A stretch of DNA of 64,000 nucleotides from an uncultured Gemmiger sp. (GTDB taxonomy: Bacteria; Bacillota; Clostridia; Oscillospirales; Ruminococcaceae). Positions within the stretch are counted from its first letter, which is position 1. Each line of letters opens with the position of its first letter. The DNA lies in contig CALXHR010000007.1 in the NCBI GenBank assembly GCA_944388175.1, positions 17,947 to 81,946 of the forward strand, written 5' to 3'. The position numbers and the translations under genes are program-made. This document shows positions 16,882-25,207 of this stretch, piece by piece. The notes under the pieces were generated by a model that worked only from the letters and a program-made list of their open reading frames with translations, did not search any database and was not told the origin of the DNA.

Positions 16882-17193
16882 TTACATTTTGTCAATCAAA
16901 GCAAACACTACGGCTTGTTGCTCTTCGCTCAATCTCGACCATCGTTCCAGGAGTTTCCGTTGCGAATCCGTCAGAGAAACCGGTTCGTCTTTTTCTGCAA
17001 ACAGCTCGGAAAGCGTAATGCCGAAAGCCATGCAGATTTTTTCCAAAGACGGAATCGTAGGAACCATATTCTTGCGGTACCACGAGGAGATCGTAGACTG
17101 CGGCAAACCAGAGCGTTCTGCAAGCTGATACTCTGTCCAGCCCCGCTCCTCCCGATACGCGGTTATGGCAGAGAGAATATCTTTCACCTGCAT
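16882..17193 (-). CDS. Small XRE-family transcriptional regulator
   Basis: A 103-residue Cro/C1-type repressor. Helix-turn-helix at about residues 20-60 (YQLAERSGLPQSTISSWYRK), followed by a helical C-terminal tail (about 70-103) that probably dimerises. Base composition is clearly lower in GC than in the neighbours, as is the upstream DNA, which suggests acquisition from elsewhere. The start ATG follows AAAGGGG. Two perfect copies of GTATACTTTT, 40 bases apart (17221-17230 and 17261-17270), cover its own promoter region and may be its operators. Its targets are not known; the divergent leader and arginine decarboxylase genes are the closest candidates. Confidence 0.88.
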   Translation of the reverse strand: MQVKDILSAITAYREERGWTEYQLAERSGLPQSTISSWYRKNMVPTIPSLEKICMAFGITLSELFAEKDEPVSLTDSQRKLLERWSRLSEEQQAVVFALIDKM

Positions 17194-17219
17194 CGCCCCT
17201 TTGCTTGTGTCTTTCGTAA

Positions 17220-17270
17220 AGTATACTTTTGTTCGTCGTTGCCTTTTAATAATTTTAGTCGTATACTTTT
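17220..17270 (-). promoter_or_regulatory. Promoter and candidate operators of the small XRE gene
   Basis: GTATACTTTT occurs at 17221-17230 and again at 17261-17270. On the minus strand the first copy contains a TATACT -10 element (17220-17225). The two identical sites 40 bases apart around a promoter suggest autoregulation. Confidence 0.55.
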
Positions 17271-17325
17271 AACGATATATACAAGTAACAGAGGGGATAT
17301 GTACCGTGGGGCAGAAGCGTTGTTT

Positions 17326-17362
17326 CTTTGATGGTAGGGCGGGCGTTCACACCCGCCGAAGC
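17326..17362. repeat. Half unit of the dispersed TGTAGGGCGGG palindromic repeat
   Basis: GGTAGGGCGGGCGTTCACACCCGCCGAA closely resembles one hairpin of the repeat modules at 32.7, 39.9 and 63.98 kb. It lies between the small XRE gene and the leader RNA promoter. Confidence 0.6.
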
Positions 17363-17447
17363 GCTGTGCGCTTGCACCTTCCCCGGCCAAAAATCAAGGG
17401 GCCGCCGCGCGTGCACAACGCGGCCGAAACCACCAAAAATTTTTATT

Positions 17448-17477
17448 TGACATTTCCCCCCTGCTGTGATACGATAC
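17448..17477 (+). promoter_or_regulatory. Strong promoter of the pre-speA leader RNA
   Basis: TTGACA, 17 bases, TACGAT. It sits in an AT-rich stretch about 400 bases before the arginine decarboxylase start and has no protein gene directly behind it. Confidence 0.65.
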
Positions 17478-17841
17478 AGCCATATTTGAAAGACGAATCG
17501 AAACAGGAGTTTTTCAAAGCAATTTACCCAGGACTCCCCCCCTGCGGGGTCAAGGCCATACGGACAGCCGGGTCCACTGCCGCGCGGCAACTTGGGTTGC
17601 CTTATTGATTGAGTTAAAAGCTCAAATTTTATAAGTTGGTTCCTTTATAACCAGAAATTGCGTGCCTGCCACGCAGACTTGTGAAACGGTCAATAAGAGT
17701 AGTAAAAGTAGAATTGCTATATAGACTCTGGACACGATCCGCCTTGCTTTTGCCCGCCCGGCCCCTGTGGGGGCGCTGCGCGGGGCCCCTGTATGCATTG
17801 CGAACGCAAGCCTGCCTGTACGGCGGCTTGCGTTTTTTGTT
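17478..17841 (+). ncRNA. Candidate structured leader or small RNA ending in a terminator before speA
   Basis: About 360 bases with its own promoter and an intrinsic terminator at the end. Several local hairpins can be drawn: TTTGAAA/TTTCAAA, GGAC/GTCC, GGCAAC/GTTGCC, TTGAG/CTCAA, TGGTT/AACCA and TGCGTG/CACGCA. I find no open frame with a ribosome-binding site. It does not match the riboswitch, 6S, SRP, RNase P or tmRNA motifs I know. It could be a cis-acting attenuator of arginine decarboxylase or a free-standing small RNA. Confidence 0.45.
17803..17841 (+). terminator. Intrinsic terminator directly upstream of speA
   Basis: AACGCAAGCC and GGCTTGCGTT make a perfect 10-bp stem with a 12-base loop, followed by TTTTTTGTTT. 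It ends only 34 bases before the arginine decarboxylase start, so transcripts from upstream must read through it to express the operon. Confidence 0.85.
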
Positions 17842-17874
17842 TGGCGGGGCCACACCGAAGGGATGTGCAAAACC

Positions 17875-19341
17875 ATGAACGCAAACGAACGCCGCACCCG
17901 GCTGGACCAGCGGCGCGCGCCGATCCATGAAGCGCTGGAAAATTTCCGCCGCATGCGGGTGGTGCCGTTTGACGTGCCGGGCCACAAACACGGCCGCGGC
18001 AACCCCGAACTGACGGCCTTTTTGGGCCAGCAGTGCGTGGGGGTGGACGTCAACAGCATGAAACCGCTGGACAACCTCTGCCACCCGGTCTCGGTCATCC
18101 GCGAAGCGGAGGAACTGGCCGCCGACGCCTTTGGCGCGGCGCACGCCTTTTTGATGGTGGGCGGCACCACCAGCTCGGTACAAAGCATGGTGCTGGCCGC
18201 CTGCAAACGCGGGGATGAGATCATCCTGCCGCGCAACGTCCACCGCAGCGTGCTCAACGCGCTGGTGCTGTGCGGCGCGGTGCCGGTGTACGTCAACCCC
18301 GAGGTTGACCGCCGCCTGGGCATCAGCCTGGGCATGCGGCGCGAACAGGTGGCCAAAGCCATTGCCGAGCACCCCCGCGCCGTGGCGGTGCTTGTGAACA
18401 ACCCCACCTACTACGGCATCTGCAGCGACCTGCGCGCCATTGTGCGCATGGCGCACGACGCCGGCATGCTGTGCCTGGCCGACGAAGCTCACGGCACCCA
18501 CTTTTACTTTGGCGGCGGGCTGCCGGTCTCGGCCATGGAGGCCGGGGCCGATATGGCCGCGGTCTCGATGCACAAAAGCGGCGGCAGCCTGACGCAGTCC
18601 AGCCTGCTGCTGACCGGCCCCAACGTCCACGCCGGGTATGTGCGGCAGATCATCAACCTGACGCAGACGACCTCCGGCAGTTACCTGCTGATGTCCAGCC
18701 TGGATATTTCCCGCCGCAACCTGGCGCTGCGCGGGCGGCAGGTGTTCCACCAGGTGGCCGATATGGCCGAGTACGCGCGCGAGGAGATCAACGCCGTGGG
18801 CGGGTACTATGCCTTTGGCAAAGAACTGTGCAACGGCGACTCCATCTTTGACTTTGACACCACCAAGCTCAGCGTCCACACGCTGGACATTGGCCTGGCG
18901 GGCATCGAGGTCTACGATATCTTGCGCGACGAGTACGATATCCAGATCGAGTTCGGGGATATCGGCAACATTTTGGCCTACCTCTCGATGGGCGACCGCC
19001 CGCAGGAGCTGGAGCGCCTGGTCAGCGCCCTGGCCGAGATCAAGCGCCGCTACCGCACCGACGGCGCGGGCCTGCTCAGCCAGGAGTACATCGACCCCGA
19101 GGTCGTCGCCAGCCCGCAGCAGGCGTTCTACGCCGAAAAAGTCAGCCTGCCGCTGCGCCAGACCGAAGGGCGCGTGTGCAGCGAGTTCGTCATGTGCTAC
19201 CCGCCGGGCATCCCCATCCTGGCCCCGGGCGAGCGCATCACCGCCGAAATCCTCGATTATATCGAGTACGCCAAGGCCAAGGGCTGCAGCATGACCGGCC
19301 CCGAGGACCCCGATATCCTGCACCTGAACGTACTGGCGTGA
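17875..19341 (+). CDS. speA: Arginine decarboxylase-type PLP enzyme (Orn/Lys/Arg decarboxylase family)
   Basis: A 488-residue fold-type I PLP enzyme of the short, Bacillus SpeA-like Orn/Lys/Arg decarboxylase family. The N-terminal VPFDVPGHKHGRG is a family hallmark. GGTTSSVQSM binds the cofactor phosphate, DEAHGTHFYFG (about 203) carries the PLP-ring aspartate and SMHKSGGSLTQ (Lys about 234) forms the Schiff base. A C-terminal domain follows from about 390. Arginine is the likeliest substrate because an agmatinase-type enzyme is encoded two genes on; lysine or ornithine cannot be excluded. The ATG at 17875 lies 11 bases after GAAGGGA. First gene of the polyamine block. Confidence 0.88.
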   Translation: MNANERRTRLDQRRAPIHEALENFRRMRVVPFDVPGHKHGRGNPELTAFLGQQCVGVDVNSMKPLDNLCHPVSVIREAEELAADAFGAAHAFLMVGGTTSSVQSMVLAACKRGDEIILPRNVHRSVLNALVLCGAVPVYVNPEVDRRLGISLGMRREQVAKAIAEHPRAVAVLVNNPTYYGICSDLRAIVRMAHDAGMLCLADEAHGTHFYFGGGLPVSAMEAGADMAAVSMHKSGGSLTQSSLLLTGPNVHAGYVRQIINLTQTTSGSYLLMSSLDISRRNLALRGRQVFHQVADMAEYAREEINAVGGYYAFGKELCNGDSIFDFDTTKLSVHTLDIGLAGIEVYDILRDEYDIQIEFGDIGNILAYLSMGDRPQELERLVSALAEIKRRYRTDGAGLLSQEYIDPEVVASPQQAFYAEKVSLPLRQTEGRVCSEFVMCYPPGIPILAPGERITAEILDYIEYAKAKGCSMTGPEDPDILHLNVLA

Positions 19342-19699: not shown

Positions 19700-20557
19700 A
19701 TGGAAATGTGGTTTTCGGAGTTTCACACCCCCGACGTCAAGCACAGCATCCGCGTGAACCGGCAGCTGTACAGCAAACAGAGCGAGTACCAGCGCATCGA
19801 CATCTTTGAAACGCCGGAGTTTGGCCGCGTGCTGACGCTGGACGGCAACGTCATGCTGACCGAGCGCGACGAGTTCATCTACGACGAGATGATTACCCAC
19901 GTGCCGATGTCGGTGCACCGCCAGGCCAAGGACATTCTGGTCATCGGCGCGGGCGACGGCGGCGTTGTGCGCGAACTGACGCGCTACGACCGCGTCGAGC
20001 GCGTCGACCTTGTCGAGATGGACCCCCAGGTCGTCGAAGCCTGCCGCGCCTACCTGCCCGGCAACGCCTGCCGCATGGACGACCGCCGCGTGCATATCTA
20101 TTTTGAGAACGCGCTCAAATTCATCCGCCGGTGCGAGGACGCGTACGACCTCATCATCGTCGATTCCTCCGACCCGTTCGGCCCGTCCGAAGGGTTGTTC
20201 ACGCGGGAATTTTACGGCAACTGCTTCAACGCCCTGCGCGCCGACGGCATCATGGTCAACCAGCAGGGCAGCCCCTTTTATGCCGAGGACGCCAGCGCCA
20301 TGCAGCGCAGCCACAAGCGCATTGCCAGCACCTTCCCCATCAGCCGGGTGTACCAGGCACACATCCCCACCTTTGCGGCGGGGTACTGGCTGTTTGGCTT
20401 TGCCAGCAAGAAATACCACCCCATCGACGACCTGGACGCCGCGGCGTGGAACGCGCTGAACCTGCGCACGCGCTACTACACCACGCGGCTGCACGTGGGC
20501 GCGTTTTACCTGCCCGCCTTTTTGGAAGAGATGCTGCGCGAAGTGGAGGACCGCTGA
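19700..20557 (+). CDS. speE: Spermidine synthase homologue (SpeE)
   Basis: A 285-residue polyamine aminopropyltransferase. It carries the nucleotide-binding motif VIGAGDGGVVREL near residue 81, the acidic LVEMDPQVVE (about 108) and the family hallmark DSSDPFGPSEGLF (about 154). An N-terminal beta-barrel-like region, WFSEFHTPDVKHSIRV, is typical of SpeE. The known reaction moves the aminopropyl group from decarboxylated SAM to putrescine. No speD (SAM decarboxylase) is encoded nearby, so the donor must come from elsewhere in the genome or the substrate differs. The ATG follows CAGGAGGG by 8 bases. The stop codon overlaps the next start (TGATG). Confidence 0.93.
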   Translation: MEMWFSEFHTPDVKHSIRVNRQLYSKQSEYQRIDIFETPEFGRVLTLDGNVMLTERDEFIYDEMITHVPMSVHRQAKDILVIGAGDGGVVRELTRYDRVERVDLVEMDPQVVEACRAYLPGNACRMDDRRVHIYFENALKFIRRCEDAYDLIIVDSSDPFGPSEGLFTREFYGNCFNALRADGIMVNQQGSPFYAEDASAMQRSHKRIASTFPISRVYQAHIPTFAAGYWLFGFASKKYHPIDDLDAAAWNALNLRTRYYTTRLHVGAFYLPAFLEEMLREVEDR

Positions 20558-21426
20558 TGCTGCCACGCAATGTAGAAAATTTCATTGGCTGCGACAGCGG
20601 CTACCGCGCCGCGCAGGTGGTGCTGTACGGCGCGCCGTTTGACTCCACCACCAGCTACCGCCCCGGCGCGCGGTTCGGCCCGGCGGCCATCCGGCACGAG
20701 AGCTACGGCCTTGAGACCTACAGCCCCTACCAGGACGCCGACCTGACCGACTGCGCCGTGTTTGACAGCGGCGACCTGGAACTGTGCTTTGGCAGCAGCG
20801 AGAGCGCGCTGGTCGATATCGAATCCCGCGCGGCGGAAATTTTGCGCGACGGCAAGTTCCCGCTGCTGCTGGGGGGCGAGCACCTCGTCACGCTGGGGGC
20901 GGTGCGCGCCGTGGCCGCCCGCTGGCCGGAGCTGCACATTGTCCACTTTGACGCCCACGCCGATCTGCGCGACGACTACCTGGGCGCCAAGCTCAGCCAC
21001 GCCTGCGTGCTGCGCCGCTGCCACGACCTGCTGGGCGACGGGCGCATCCACCAGTTCTGCATCCGCAGCGGCGACCGCGCGGAGTTTGCGTTCGCCGCCG
21101 CCCACACCGACCTGCACCGGTTTGATTTCAGCGGCCTGCCCGCGCTGACCCAGTGGCTGCGCGAAACGCAGGTGCCGGTGTACCTGACCGTCGACCTCGA
21201 CTGCCTGGACCCGGCGGTGTTCCCCGGCACCGGCACGCCGGAAGCCGGGGGCGTCAGCTTCCCGCAGCTGCTGGAAGCCATCCGCACCGTGGCGCAGGCG
21301 CGCCTGGTGGGCGCCGACCTCAACGAGCTGGCCCCCATGCTGGACGCCAGCGGGGCGTCGACCGCGACGGCCTGCAAAGTCCTGCGTGAGCTGCTGCTGG
21401 CCATCTGCCACCGCCGCCCGGCCTGA
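20557..21426 (+). CDS. speB: Agmatinase-type ureohydrolase (SpeB)
   Basis: A 289-residue arginase/agmatinase family enzyme that hydrolyses a guanidino group to urea. All manganese-binding motifs are visible: GGEHLVT (about 107), FDAHADLRDDY (about 130), and TVDLDCLDP with TGTPEAGG (about 209-230). SHACVLRR (about 147) sits where agmatinases have SHGxxxRR. It should convert agmatine from the upstream decarboxylase into putrescine. An alternative, given the downstream dehydrogenase and decarboxylase, is action on aminopropylagmatine to give spermidine directly. Its start overlaps the speE stop by one base, so it is translationally coupled. Confidence 0.93.
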   Translation: MLPRNVENFIGCDSGYRAAQVVLYGAPFDSTTSYRPGARFGPAAIRHESYGLETYSPYQDADLTDCAVFDSGDLELCFGSSESALVDIESRAAEILRDGKFPLLLGGEHLVTLGAVRAVAARWPELHIVHFDAHADLRDDYLGAKLSHACVLRRCHDLLGDGRIHQFCIRSGDRAEFAFAAAHTDLHRFDFSGLPALTQWLRETQVPVYLTVDLDCLDPAVFPGTGTPEAGGVSFPQLLEAIRTVAQARLVGADLNELAPMLDASGASTATACKVLRELLLAICHRRPA

Positions 21427-21433
21427 AACGCCG

Positions 21434-21462
21434 TTGCCACCGCGCCCCGCGTGTGGTATAAT
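21434..21462 (+). promoter_or_regulatory. Promoter of the cobalamin-riboswitch transcript
   Basis: TTGCCA, a 17-base spacer, and TATAAT (21457-21462) just after the speB stop codon. It gives the B12 uptake genes a start of transcription independent of the polyamine operon. Confidence 0.75.
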
Positions 21463-21489
21463 CAGCGGGTCAAAAACCGATACGCTCTT

Positions 21490-21640
21490 TGTTCCCAGCC
21501 GCGGGGGCGGCCGGCCTGGCCGGACGCCCACCGGGGAAGCAGGGTGAAAGCCCCTCACAGTCCCGCTACTGTTACAGTCAGATCGCCGGGCGGCCGGGAA
21601 GTACGTCCCCACGAGAGATGGGGAAGGGTACGCGCGCAAA
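21490..21640 (+). ncRNA. Cobalamin riboswitch
   Basis: The conserved core is visible: GGGGAAGCAGGGTGAAAGCC, then CACAGTCCCGCTACTGT at about 21557-21574, and a 3' half with GCCGGGAAG. These match the cobalamin riboswitch consensus (GGGAA..GGTGAAA..CC...CCCGCTACTGT). A GC-rich hairpin (GGCCCCCGCGGC/GCCGCAGGGGCC) with a downstream CCCTTTTACC follows and probably forms the off-state structure. Exact ends are approximate. Confidence 0.9.
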
Positions 21641-21642
21641 GT

Positions 21643-21692
21643 TGGCCCCCGCGGCATGGCCGCAGGGGCCGGCGGGCCACCCTTTTACCGTT
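21643..21692 (+). terminator. Expression platform hairpin of the cobalamin riboswitch
   Basis: GGCCCCCGCGGC, loop ATG, GCCGCAGGGGCC, followed some ten bases later by CCCTTTTACCGTTTTG. The hairpin is strong but the T-tract is not directly adjacent, so sequestration or imperfect termination are both possible. Confidence 0.55.
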
Positions 21693-21772
21693 TTGAAAAG
21701 GGCGGGTCCGTTTTTGCGCCGACTTTTCCACCGGCCGGTCCCCCGGCCCCACCTGCAAAGGAGCGTATCACC

Positions 21773-22177
21773 ATGCAAAACCAGACCCATAACCGCAAAA
21801 TCCTGTGGGCCGTCGTGGCCCTCGTCGTCGCCGTCGCGGCGGCGGCCGCCCTGTACTTTGCCTTTGGCCCCCAAGGCGCGGCCGGGCAAAAGACCATCAC
21901 CGTCGACGTCGTACAGCTCGACGGAGCCGAGACCGTGCACACCATCACCACCGAAGCCGAGTTCCTGCGCGGCGCGCTGGAACAGGAGGGTATCATCGCC
22001 GGCGAGGAGAGCGATTACGGCCTGTTTGTGACCACCGTCGACGGCGTGACCGCCGACGACAGCCTGGAACAGTGGTGGTGCTTTACCAAAGGCGGCGAGA
22101 GCCTGGCCACCGGCGTGGACAGCACCCCCATTGCCGACGGCGACACGTTTGAGATCACCCTGACCGAGGGGTATTGA
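21773..22177 (+). CDS. Membrane-anchored DUF4430 (transcobalamin C-terminal-like) protein, probable cobamide binding
   Basis: A 134-residue protein with one N-terminal membrane helix (about residues 9-31) and an outer domain of about 95 residues. The pattern, a beta-rich fold with DYGLFVTTVDGVTAD, then QWWCFTKGGE and GVDSTPIADGDTFEITL, is that of DUF4430, the small domain related to the C-terminal part of transcobalamin. The cobalamin riboswitch directly upstream makes B12 or cobamide capture the likely role. The start follows CAAAGGAGCG. It overlaps the next gene by one base (TGATG), which points to a joint function with the ECF component. Confidence 0.85.
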   Translation: MQNQTHNRKILWAVVALVVAVAAAAALYFAFGPQGAAGQKTITVDVVQLDGAETVHTITTEAEFLRGALEQEGIIAGEESDYGLFVTTVDGVTADDSLEQWWCFTKGGESLATGVDSTPIADGDTFEITLTEGY

Positions 22178-22680
22178 TGCGCCGCGCCGCCACGCTGCGC
22201 ATGGTACAGGCCGGGCTGATGGGCGCGCTGCTGTTCGTCTGCAAAGAGACGCTGGCCCCGCTGCCCGGCGAGCCGGTCACGCCGCTGATTATCCTCTACG
22301 CGCTGGAGTTCCCGACCGCCGCGCCGTGGGCCATCGCGGTGTTTGTGGCGCTGCAGTTCGTGCTGTACGGCTTTGGGCTGTGGAGCTGGATGTACCTGTA
22401 CATCTGGTACCTGCTGTACGCGCTGGCGCGCCGTCTGCGCGGCATGGACAGCGCCCCCGGCTGGGCGGCCGTGGCGGGGGCGTACGGGCTGGCGTTCGGC
22501 GCGCTGTGCGCGCCGGTGTACCTGTTCACGTCCGGCCCCGGCGGGGCGCTGGCCTGGTGGGTCGCCGGGCTGCCCACCGACATCGTGCACTGCCTGGGCA
22601 ATTTCGTCATCACCCTGCTTGCGTACCGGCCGCTGCGGCGCGCGCTGCGCCGCGTTGCCGGCAAAACCGGAAAATGGTAA
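22177..22680 (+). CDS. ECF transporter S component, probably for cobalamin
   Basis: A 167-residue, very hydrophobic protein with about five to six membrane helices. Size, the N-terminal basic start followed by ALMGALLFVCKETLA, and the helix pattern fit the substrate-binding S component of energy-coupling-factor importers. No EcfA or EcfT gene is nearby, so it would share a module encoded elsewhere (group II arrangement). The substrate is inferred from the cobalamin riboswitch and the coupled DUF4430 gene; the protein sequence alone does not prove it. It starts with ATG in a TGATG overlap with the upstream stop. Confidence 0.82.
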   Translation: MRRAATLRMVQAGLMGALLFVCKETLAPLPGEPVTPLIILYALEFPTAAPWAIAVFVALQFVLYGFGLWSWMYLYIWYLLYALARRLRGMDSAPGWAAVAGAYGLAFGALCAPVYLFTSGPGGALAWWVAGLPTDIVHCLGNFVITLLAYRPLRRALRRVAGKTGKW

Positions 22681-22739
22681 AAAATTAGGGTCCCCCGGGG
22701 CGCACCCCCGGCCCACCTGCAAAAAAAGGAGCGTTCGTT

Positions 22740-23999
22740 ATGAGCAAAGTTCTCGTCATCGGCTGCGGCGGCGTGGCCAGCGTCGCCATCCACAAATGCT
22801 GCCAGGCCAGCGAAGTGTTTACCGAGCTGTGCATCGCCAGCCGCACCAAGTCCAAATGCGACGCGCTGGCGGCCAAGCTGGCCCCCACCACCAAAACCAA
22901 ACTCACCACCGCGCAGGTCGACGCCGACGACGTGGACCAGCTCATCGCCCTCATCAAGGGGTACGGGCCGGACCTTGTCATGAACATTGCCCTGCCCTAC
23001 CAGGACCTGACGATCATGGACGCCTGCCTGGCGTGCGGCGTCAACTACATGGACACCGCCAACTACGAGCCGGAAAACACTGACGACCCCGCCTGGCGCG
23101 CCGTGTACGAGAAACGCTGCAAAGAGGAAGGTTTTTCGGCCTACTTTGACTATTCCTGGCAGTGGGCGTACAAGAAAAAGTTCGAGGATGCCGGCCTGAC
23201 GGCGCTGCTGGGCTGCGGGTTTGACCCCGGCGTGACCCAGGCGTACTGCGCCTACGCCGCCAAGCATGAGTTCGACACCATCGACACCATCGACATTTTG
23301 GACTGCAACGGCGGCGACCACGGCTACGCCTTTGCCACCAACTTCAACCCCGAGATCAACCTGCGCGAAGTCAGCGCCCCCGGCAGCTATATGCAAAACG
23401 GCCGCTGGGTCGAGGTCCCGGCCATGAGCATCAAGCGCGAGTACGACTTTGACCAGGTCGGCCGCAAGGATATGTACCTGCTCCACCATGAGGAGATCGA
23501 GTCGCTGGGCAAAAACTTCCCCGGCGTCAAGCGCATCCGCTTCTTTATGACGTTCGGGCAGAGCTACCTCGACCACATGCGCTGCCTGGAGGACGTCGGC
23601 ATGCTGTCCACCACGCCCATCGAGTACAACGGCCAGCAGATCGTGCCCATCCAGTTCCTCAAAGCGCTGCTGCCGGACCCCGCCAGCCTGGGCCCGCGCA
23701 CCAAGGGCAAGACCAACATCGGCTGCATCTTTACCGGCACCAAGGACGGCCAGCCCAAGACCTGGTACATCTATAACGTCTGCGACCACGAAGCCTGCTA
23801 CCGCGAGGTCGGCAGCCAGGCTATCAGCTACACTACCGGCGTGCCGGCCATGTGTGGCGCGCTGATGCTGCTGACCGGGAAATGGAACCAGCCCGGCGTC
23901 TATACCGTTGAGGAGTTCGACCCCGACCCGTTCCTGGACGCGCTGGACCAGTACGGCCTGCCGCGCAGCGTCAACGCCGCCCCGGCGCTGGTGGACTGA
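22740..23999 (+). CDS. Carboxy(nor)spermidine dehydrogenase, saccharopine dehydrogenase family
   Basis: A 419-residue NAD(P)-dependent enzyme. The Rossmann motif VLVIGCGGVASVAIHKC is at the N-terminus, CNGGDHGYAF near 190 and the family ending ELxxFDPDPFLDAL-like at the C-terminus. It belongs to the saccharopine dehydrogenase-like group that makes carboxyspermidine or carboxynorspermidine by reductive condensation of aspartate semialdehyde with putrescine or diaminopropane. The decarboxylase that acts next is encoded directly downstream with a one-base overlap. The start ATG follows AAAAAAGGAGCG. There is no clear terminator after the B12 gene, so read-through from the riboswitch transcript is possible. 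Confidence 0.93.
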   Translation: MSKVLVIGCGGVASVAIHKCCQASEVFTELCIASRTKSKCDALAAKLAPTTKTKLTTAQVDADDVDQLIALIKGYGPDLVMNIALPYQDLTIMDACLACGVNYMDTANYEPENTDDPAWRAVYEKRCKEEGFSAYFDYSWQWAYKKKFEDAGLTALLGCGFDPGVTQAYCAYAAKHEFDTIDTIDILDCNGGDHGYAFATNFNPEINLREVSAPGSYMQNGRWVEVPAMSIKREYDFDQVGRKDMYLLHHEEIESLGKNFPGVKRIRFFMTFGQSYLDHMRCLEDVGMLSTTPIEYNGQQIVPIQFLKALLPDPASLGPRTKGKTNIGCIFTGTKDGQPKTWYIYNVCDHEACYREVGSQAISYTTGVPAMCGALMLLTGKWNQPGVYTVEEFDPDPFLDALDQYGLPRSVNAAPALVD

Positions 24000-25207
24000 T
24001 GCCCGCGCCCGACACCCGCGCGCCGTTTGCGGCGCTGGGGGGCGTGCTGCCGCCGACGCTGGCCGCCCTGCCCACACCCTGCTACCTGCTGGACGAGGGC
24101 GCGCTGGCCCGCAACGCCGAAGTTCTGGGCGCGCTGGCGCAGCGCACCGGCTGCAAGGTGCTGCTGGCGCAAAAAGCCTTCAGCAACTACGACCTCTACC
24201 CGCTGCTGGCCCCGCACCTGGCGGGCACCGAAGCCAGCGGCCTGTATGAGGCGCGCCTGGGCGCCGAGGAGATGCCCGGCAAGGAGGTCCACGTCTTTTG
24301 CGCGGCCTACCGCGCCGACGAAATGCCGGAACTGCTGCGCTGGGCCGACCACATCGTGTTCAACTCGCCGGCGCAGCTGGCGGCGTTTGGCCCGGCGGCC
24401 CAAGCCGCGGGCAAAAGCGTGGGCCTGCGCATAAACCCCGAGTGCTCGACGCAAAAGGGCCACGCCCTCTACGACCCCTGCGCCCCCGGCAGCCGCCTGG
24501 GCACCACCCGCGCCCAGTGGGACGCCGCGCTGGCGGCGAACCCCGCCCTGCCGGACCTGCTGGACGGGCTGCACTTCCACACCCTGTGCGAGCAGGACGC
24601 CGACGCGCTGGCCGTGACGCTGGACGCCGTGGCCGAAACCTTCGGCGACCTGCTGCCGCGGATGCAGTGGCTCAACCTGGGCGGCGGGCACCACATCACC
24701 CGCCCCGGCTACGACCTGGCGCTGCTGGAACGCTGCATCGCCCGCGCGCAGCGCGCCTGGGGCGTGCAGGTCTACCTGGAACCGGGCGAAGCCTGCGCCC
24801 TCAACGCCGGGTACCTGCTGGCGCGCGTGCTGGACGTCGTACAAAACGGCGATACCACCATTGCCATTTTGGACGCCAGCGCGGCCTGCCACATGCCCGA
24901 TGTGCTGGAAATGCCCTACCGCCCGCCGTTGCTGGGCGCGAGCGAACCCGGCGAAAAACCGTACACCGTGCGCCTGGCCGGGCCAACCTGCCTGGCGGGG
25001 GACGTCATCGGCGACTACAGCTTTGCCGCGCCACCCGCTGTGGGCGATTTGCTGGCGTTTGGCGATATGGCCATCTACACCACCTGCAAAAACAACACTT
25101 TCAACGGTATGCCGCTGCCCGCCATCTGGGCGCGGGATGCCGCGGGCAGCTGCCGCGAACTGGTGCGGTTCGGCTACGCCGACTTCAAGCGCCGCCTGGG
25201 CAGCTGA
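23999..25207 (+). CDS. nspC: Carboxy(nor)spermidine decarboxylase NspC
   Basis: A 402-residue fold-type III (alanine-racemase-like barrel) PLP decarboxylase. The Schiff-base lysine is in LLAQKAFSNYD (about 59), and TEASGLYEARLG follows. HFHTLCEQ (about 190) and GGGHHITRPGYD (about 228) line the cofactor pocket. EPGEACALNAGY binds phosphate and DASAACHMPDV carries the other active-site Cys. It decarboxylates carboxyspermidine/carboxynorspermidine to the free triamine. The start overlaps the dehydrogenase stop (TGATG), so product channelling or equal expression is likely. Last gene of the polyamine block; a terminator follows. Confidence 0.95.
   Translation: MPAPDTRAPFAALGGVLPPTLAALPTPCYLLDEGALARNAEVLGALAQRTGCKVLLAQKAFSNYDLYPLLAPHLAGTEASGLYEARLGAEEMPGKEVHVFCAAYRADEMPELLRWADHIVFNSPAQLAAFGPAAQAAGKSVGLRINPECSTQKGHALYDPCAPGSRLGTTRAQWDAALAANPALPDLLDGLHFHTLCEQDADALAVTLDAVAETFGDLLPRMQWLNLGGGHHITRPGYDLALLERCIARAQRAWGVQVYLEPGEACALNAGYLLARVLDVVQNGDTTIAILDASAACHMPDVLEMPYRPPLLGASEPGEKPYTVRLAGPTCLAGDVIGDYSFAAPPAVGDLLAFGDMAIYTTCKNNTFNGMPLPAIWARDAAGSCRELVRFGYADFKRRLGS

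Follow-up and report, generated by a model that had tools for sequence, protein, structure and literature searches.

A conserved leader RNA upstream of speA in an uncultured Gemmiger sp.: a candidate polyamine riboswitch

Organization of the locus

The sequence analysed (the window) is a 64 000-nucleotide stretch of an uncultured Gemmiger sp. contig; the leader with its promoter and terminator and the speA, speE and agmatinase genes lie on its + strand. A speA-type Orn/Lys/Arg decarboxylase gene, placed by its PF01276 match (E = 1.2e-65) and its start codon, occupies 17875–19341 and is the putative controlled gene. The next gene on the strand is speE, encoding spermidine synthase (19700–20557; TIGR00417 and NF002010 above cut-off), and an agmatinase gene with an approximate start lies at 20560–21426 (TIGR01230 above cut-off). 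The decarboxylase profile match fits an arginine- or a lysine-specific enzyme; arginine specificity is favoured because an agmatinase stands in the same gene row. Two routes to spermidine are adjacent within 19700–25207: the spermidine synthase on the one hand and a carboxy(nor)spermidine dehydrogenase (22740–23999) with the decarboxylase NspC (23999–25207) on the other, the latter two scoring just or well below the NCBIfam cut-offs. An AdoCbl-II riboswitch (RF01689, 52.3 bits) is found at 21517–21596 inside this polyamine gene region, between the agmatinase gene and a gene for a DUF4430 protein (21656–22177), and is preceded by a promoter-like TTGCCA-17-TATAAT element at 21434–21462.

Upstream of speA, a σ70-type promoter (17447–17475) was recognized in the sequence and by a consensus scan, which returned four sites in 6.5 kb against 1.0 expected from shuffled sequences. 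It consists of TTGACA (17447–17452), a 17-nt spacer and TACGAT (17470–17475), with ten of 12 consensus matches and a TG before the −10 element. An intrinsic terminator (17803–17838) follows, formed by a hairpin at 17803–17834 with a 10-bp stem, one bulged base and three more pairs (−21.6 kcal/mol) and by a U-run at 17833–17838; the promoter and terminator scan captures just part of this hairpin. The speA ATG at 17875 is located 36 nt past the U-run. The consensus scan gave no promoter-like site between the terminator and speA, so expression of the gene seems to need read-through. The window as a whole has a G+C content of 0.662, speA 0.656 and the upstream gene 0.702, whereas 17482–17740 reaches only 0.456; the AT-richness is shared by the intergenic DNA directly upstream of the leader (17194–17446; 0.49). 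A preliminary description of this DNA had proposed the promoter, a 10-bp terminator shortly before speA and a composition richer in A and T than that of the neighbours, and all three are borne out, the last with respect to both flanking genes; its further claim that the genes can be expressed only by read-through is consistent with the promoter scan. The folding energy of the leader (17482–17845) has a z-score of −2.13, three of 100 shuffles being equally good. Folding energy by itself is weak proof of a structured RNA; the case is carried by conservation.

RF02440 and the extent of the RNA

A cmscan search of 17200–18000 with E values up to 1 returned the Rfam family RF02440, 'Streptococcus sRNA SpF59 (ldcC RNA)', and nothing else. 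The match covers 17531–17583 and model positions 1–54, with a score of 55 bits against a gathering cut-off of 37.2 bits. The preliminary description had stated that no known riboswitch class fits and had suggested an Rfam search; its statement stands for annotated riboswitches, none of which was matched, but not for known families at large, since part of the leader is RF02440. Being partly in Rfam already, under a label that points to a decarboxylase gene, the RNA is not categorically new, and 'ldcC RNA' implies that the gene link had already been noticed by someone. The published SAM-I-variant spermidine riboswitch is described as lying at an overlapping set of genes (ldcC, speB and speE) and as being turned OFF in the same manner, through termination (PMC10853860). 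That the leader is a member of this class, or of another known one such as the T-box, is nevertheless extremely improbable, as the same search (E up to 1) gave neither a SAM-I nor a T-box covariance match.

The RF02440 model of 54 nt represents about a quarter of the RNA, which is approximately 240 nt long and comprises a closing stem P1, the Rfam-matched domain A and a second conserved domain B; P1, the hairpin P5 and domain B are all outside the model. RF02440 matches (E up to 0.001) were obtained in 41 of 391 genomes of the window's own class, which we take to be Clostridia, in 31 of 398 genomes of another class, probably Bacilli (centre G715), and in 18 of 398 genomes of a phylum-wide draw, which partly contains the same genomes as the class draws. 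Most loci were gathered by exact match to a 22-letter pattern within domain A, the scan of named genomes giving at least 118 loci. Among the matches listed are Clostridia, Paenibacillus, Bacillus, Neobacillus, Acidaminococcus, Phascolarctobacterium and one Spirochaetes bin, as well as high-GC chance matches from the pattern scan.

Structure of the leader

Domain A (17531–17583) was assigned from the 55-bit match and from pairing in the alignment. It contains P2 (17531–17535/17571–17575), the P3 hairpin (17536–17550) and P4 (17554–17556/17567–17569), with two-sided changes in one pair of P2, five of P3 and one of P4. The P5 hairpin, GGCAAC-UUGG-GUUGCC (17586–17601), has some two-sided changes in all six of its alignment pairs, and 83.4% of its cells are paired. 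Domain B (17602–17696), which is absent from Rfam, was defined by the alignment and by our covariance model R1. It is made up of P6 (17602–17609/17689–17696), P7 (17611–17623), P8 (17627–17637/17676–17686) and P8a (17638–17652), and is followed by a linker, GAGUAGUAAAAGUA (17697–17712), that is conserved in the aligned loci and stands ahead of the P1 3′ strand. P1 pairs the upstream flank with the downstream AUAUUUGC..GACUC region. Its 5′ strand (17497–17523) carries the segments AUCG, GGAGUUU and GCAAU and its 3′ strand (17713–17738) the segments AUUGC, AGACUCU and CGAU; the assignment draws on the window's own duplex, with a further check of the GCAAU and GGAGUUU pairs. Over 150 distinct loci the native P1 duplexes total −3384 kcal/mol, compared with −2548 kcal/mol when strands are swapped among all loci and −2789 kcal/mol when they are swapped within a gene class (s.d. 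44 kcal/mol each), and none of 3000 swaps was as low as the native pairing.

Conservation of the aligned loci extends far past the RF02440 model. The core alignment of 29 chosen sequences has 46 invariant columns, a conservation that is partly built in: the search pattern in part dictates the CGGACAG..GCCG columns, and only rows with the domain B anchors at few mismatches were admitted. The proportion of paired cells in this alignment is 92.7%, against 86.2% in shuffles and 33–50% with slid partners, and two-sided changes occur in 20 of 47 pairs, against 11.3 (s.d. 1.7) in shuffles. The fold is aptamer-like and conserved with compensatory changes, of which a stricter tree-based null supports only three pairs (E < 0.05), each of them a canonical pair in P2 or P3. 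P6 and most of P8 are nearly invariant, which makes covariation uninformative for these helices. R1 scores 162.7 bits over 17531–17700, with the window itself being a row of the model, and finds 48 of the 391 genomes, namely 40 of the 41 found with RF02440 and eight more. Two pairings proposed by RNAalifold were set aside. One, a local hairpin of AGAGU with ACUCU at the 3′ end, ranks below P1, in which the same ACUCU pairs upstream; the pairing of GACC with a distant GGUC was ruled out, because a neighbouring pair covaries with a near GGGUC (UA/GC/CG).

The two domains are separable. Loci L225, L226 and L229 keep domain B, and L228 its first part, with domain A lost or degenerate (no RF02440 match in the first three), and L079 has domain A alone. 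In L036 (Holdemania massiliensis, 485–612, − strand) RF02440 scores 40.3 bits and R1 29.4 bits, and domain B is degenerate.

A leader-peptide attenuator was ruled out. Complete open reading frames of at least 30 codons are present in 96 of 175 loci, but no short frame is conserved and the spacing between the conserved blocks spreads over all three frames, in agreement with the earlier judgement that no open frame is credible.

Association with polyamine genes

Downstream genes were detected by tblastn with four proteins drawn from the loci themselves. There were 177 kept loci; six end too early to show a gene, and merging of identical places left 161 distinct loci with enough sequence. A polyamine gene is downstream in all 161: speA in 51, the transport gene potA in 37, carboxyspermidine dehydrogenase in 37 and speD in 36. 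Profile searches back these gene names, the dehydrogenase scoring below NCBIfam's own cut-off. In the measured loci the gene match begins at most about 620 nt from the anchor, with medians of 231–390 nt by gene type; in L228 it is 447 nt away with 55% identity. In L123 a frame for a PII-like nitrogen regulator (named by eye) comes first, followed by potA 619 nt from the anchor, and in L003 two Gut-1 RNA matches on opposite strands (2776–2955) are found near a potA-type copy of the RNA. A further 17 loci, eight found by R1 only and nine additional RF02440 hits, are likewise all linked to a polyamine gene, although overlap of these 17 with the named records is possible; a weak RF02440 hit, G248, is not among the loci. 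The conservation ahead of speA homologues that the preliminary description had named as a check is thus present, and it extends to speD, potA and carboxyspermidine dehydrogenase; many Bacillota carry the RNA ahead of genes for polyamine synthesis or import.

A downstream-motif filter flagged 16 of the 118 pattern loci; L140 and L148 were retained by eye and 14 were set aside, in none of which did tblastn match any of the four polyamine proteins. Two of the 14, L036 and L079, do match RF02440, without a normal domain B, and no polyamine gene is present in the 583 and 231 nt of sequence available for them, respectively; L036 precedes an unrelated lipoprotein-like gene (judged by eye) with no polyamine link. 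The association is with genes of one pathway, L036 being the exception, and since these two loci combine the Rfam fragment and an abnormal domain B with the lack of a polyamine gene, the link seems to follow domain B above all.

Terminator and antiterminator

Of 155 distinct loci, 140 have a terminator between the RNA and the gene, compared with six of 148 length-matched stretches inside genes; the scan found none in the other 15. Six of the 161 gene-linked loci, which have no recognisable CUUGUGAA block, were left out of this count. The 5′ arm of the terminator is complementary to the strand around CUUGUG, which is the 3′ side of P8. In the window, an antiterminator 5′ strand (17673–17683) that overlaps the P8 3′ strand pairs with 17805–17815 in the terminator 5′ arm, the antiterminator 3′ strand, through ten pairs with one mismatch (−14.2 kcal/mol). 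With 59 nt as the target, CUUG falls inside the best duplex at 94 of 122 loci (27% for shuffled arms); another figure (CUU in 126 of 140 duplexes) was discarded because its target was just 22 nt. The energy gain over dinucleotide-shuffled arms is modest: the mean z is −1.1, and the native arm ranks among the best 5% at 33 of 122 loci.

Over 140 loci the mean antiterminator duplex energy is −11.93 kcal/mol for native and −10.09 kcal/mol for swapped arms, and none of 5000 permutations was as good, a test that is inflated by the relatedness of the loci. With 22 dissimilar representatives the values are −9.61 and −7.60 kcal/mol (again none of 5000). For 8260 pairs of near relatives the native arm was better in 6588 and worse in 1466. 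Within gene classes, where the sets are small, 74, 10 and 40 of 5000 permutations were as good for eight speA, eight speD and five potA representatives, respectively. The unconstrained fold of the window (−124.8) keeps P6, P7, P8, P8a and the terminator, with P1 and P2 absent; structures enforced on the window gave −119.2 kcal/mol for aptamer plus terminator and −110.8 kcal/mol for the antiterminator. As judged by complementarity, the expression platform is exclusive with the aptamer: P8 plus terminator and the antiterminator are predicted to be mutually exclusive, an arrangement with the apparent layout of a transcriptional OFF switch.

These results bear on the reading of the RNA as a free-standing trans-acting sRNA, as it is filed in Rfam (type 'Gene; sRNA'), with the terminator just ending the sRNA and speA a mere neighbour. 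The RNA has its own promoter and terminator, and pneumococcal papers, in the parts available, include F59/srn235/Spd_sr49 among sRNAs, one table having a lung entry. Yet a polyamine gene lies behind the RNA at every one of the 161 loci and of the further 17, the consensus scan gave no promoter-like site from the terminator to speA, and the match of the terminator 5′ arm to an aptamer strand would be needless in a free sRNA; a terminated leader would in any case show up as an sRNA. As the main reading it was rejected on the gene association, and we consider it improbable. The preliminary description had named a free-standing sRNA as its alternative; gene association and the matched terminator arm place it below a cis-acting leader.

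Proposed mechanism and ligand

A cis-acting transcription attenuator is well supported and very probably correct. The earlier proposal of an attenuator or a new riboswitch gains support from the conservation, from the terminator in 140 of 155 loci and from the complementary aptamer strand. We suggest that the leader of approximately 240 nt, with its terminator, controls the polyamine operon through premature transcription termination. The nascent RNA would fold into a multi-branched domain that is closed by P1 and contains domains A and B, with P8 of domain B using the strand around ACUUGUG. As long as this strand is kept in P8, the terminator would form and transcription would stop before speA (OFF). 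If P8 opens, the ACUUGUG strand could pair with the terminator 5′ arm to give the antiterminator, and speA and the genes behind it would be read (ON). Since P8 plus terminator would exclude the antiterminator, a ligand that holds P8 should lead to termination. A polyamine, most likely spermidine, would bind and stabilize the folded domain, giving an end-product OFF switch. What was computed here is the RNA with its conserved structure, its link to polyamine genes, the terminators and the complementarity behind the antiterminator; direct ligand binding, the identity of the ligand and the direction of switching we infer. Taken as a whole, this explanation, a cis-acting leader that acts as a spermidine-type polyamine riboswitch and is switched OFF by premature termination, is probably right.

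The anatomy of leader, terminator and antiterminator is silent on what stabilizes the aptamer. An RNA-binding regulator or antiterminator protein could read the attenuator, with no small molecule involved. Against this stands the multi-branched fold of approximately 240 nt with its long conserved blocks, as a simple protein site needs less. A small HTH_3 (Cro/CI-type) regulator gene on the − strand (16882–17193) is divergent from the leader. We regard a protein-read attenuator as rather unlikely; the RNA itself is likely to sense a polyamine directly.

Genomes were searched for spermidine synthase and carboxyspermidine dehydrogenase. Both enzymes are encoded in all 13 genomes in which the RNA precedes a biosynthetic gene (speA, speD or that of the dehydrogenase). 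In the 11 genomes tested with the RNA at potA (37 distinct potA loci), no carboxyspermidine dehydrogenase was found, and the only spermidine synthase matches were two weak, partial ones (E = 9.3e-6, above the cut-off, and 7.8e-4, below it); four of these genomes are less than 90% complete (61, 62, 83 and 89%). These cells probably import polyamine. As the potA-linked genomes tested have no convincing spermidine-making genes, the signal is likely to be an imported polyamine such as spermidine rather than arginine or agmatine. The preliminary description had proposed a polyamine, arginine or agmatine as the ligand; the polyamine is retained, and arginine and agmatine fit poorly with the same RNA preceding potA in 11 genomes. 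The PF01276 decarboxylase family has some match in ten of these 11 genomes, nine of them over the cut-off, so putrescine is a possible signal.

A riboswitch with another ligand (putrescine, agmatine, carboxyspermidine or arginine), or with an additional second signal, is possible but the less favoured reading. The enzymes encoded by speA, speD and the carboxyspermidine dehydrogenase gene act at different steps, the decarboxylase matches just mentioned would suit it, and the separable domains, with B kept wholly or partly in four loci and A alone in one, leave room for a second signal. However, precursors seem unlikely ligands given the potA-linked genomes, and the four gene types have spermidine as their common product. 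As a single ligand, spermidine is our best guess, with an even chance of being correct. We lean slightly towards a new, widespread class of polyamine (spermidine) riboswitch in which domain B is the polyamine-linked sensor, domain A an accessory or second sensor and F59 the terminated product.

Relation to published RNAs

Domain A of the leader is RF02440/SpF59 over the full model length; the Rfam entry differs in being a 54-nt sRNA gene, whereas the RNA described here is approximately 240 nt long with a terminator/antiterminator platform. By published coordinates, F59 of Streptococcus pneumoniae TIGR4 (869510–869591, + strand) lies between SP0915 and SP0916 (PMC3395615), directly before the latter, an arginine decarboxylase gene. 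A 2025 paper places F59 among putative sRNAs at 869478–869804 (PMC12323649), and SP_0916 is described as an arginine decarboxylase tied to capsule formation (PMC7531197). On deletion of potABCD, with polyamines reduced, qRT-PCR is reported to give a 16.9-fold increase for speA and a 14.4-fold increase for speE, and RNA-seq in the same study no differential expression of either gene (PMC8540371). The transport inhibitor AMXT 1501 is reported to raise three polyamine genes 1.4–1.7-fold and DFMO to lower two of the three 1.5-fold (PMC10887117). Of these reported changes, those by qRT-PCR and with AMXT 1501 are consistent with an OFF switch; the outcomes of RNA-seq and of DFMO treatment lend it no support.

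The SAM-I-variant spermidine riboswitch (Salvail et al., 2023; PMC10853860) is described as similar in its polyamine genes, in being OFF by premature termination and in an antiterminator that competes with an aptamer helix; its alignment has 13 representatives, compared with 161 distinct gene-linked loci here. The present RNA is predicted to work like that riboswitch but is no member of its class: it has no SAM-I match and another domain architecture, and the proposed riboswitch appears to be structurally unrelated. The odc1 and potE motifs (Brewer et al., 2021; PMC8632094) are also leader RNA candidates near polyamine genes; they are set apart by their descriptions, odc1 incorporating a uORF and potE being a weak riboswitch candidate. 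In the literature, mostly outside subscription papers and in the text available, we found no description of the RNA as a riboswitch, and no mention of it in the accessible parts of PMC11109978, PMC8632094, PMC6429828 and PMC6212727; PMC12211059 and PMC12826042 appear from their available text to concern unrelated subjects.

The RNA is a strong riboswitch candidate, with a clear platform, testable parts and coverage of both synthesis and import genes. A 54-nt Rfam entry can conceal most of an RNA. If the explanation is true, a pneumococcal 'sRNA' without an assigned role would become a leader that controls arginine decarboxylase.
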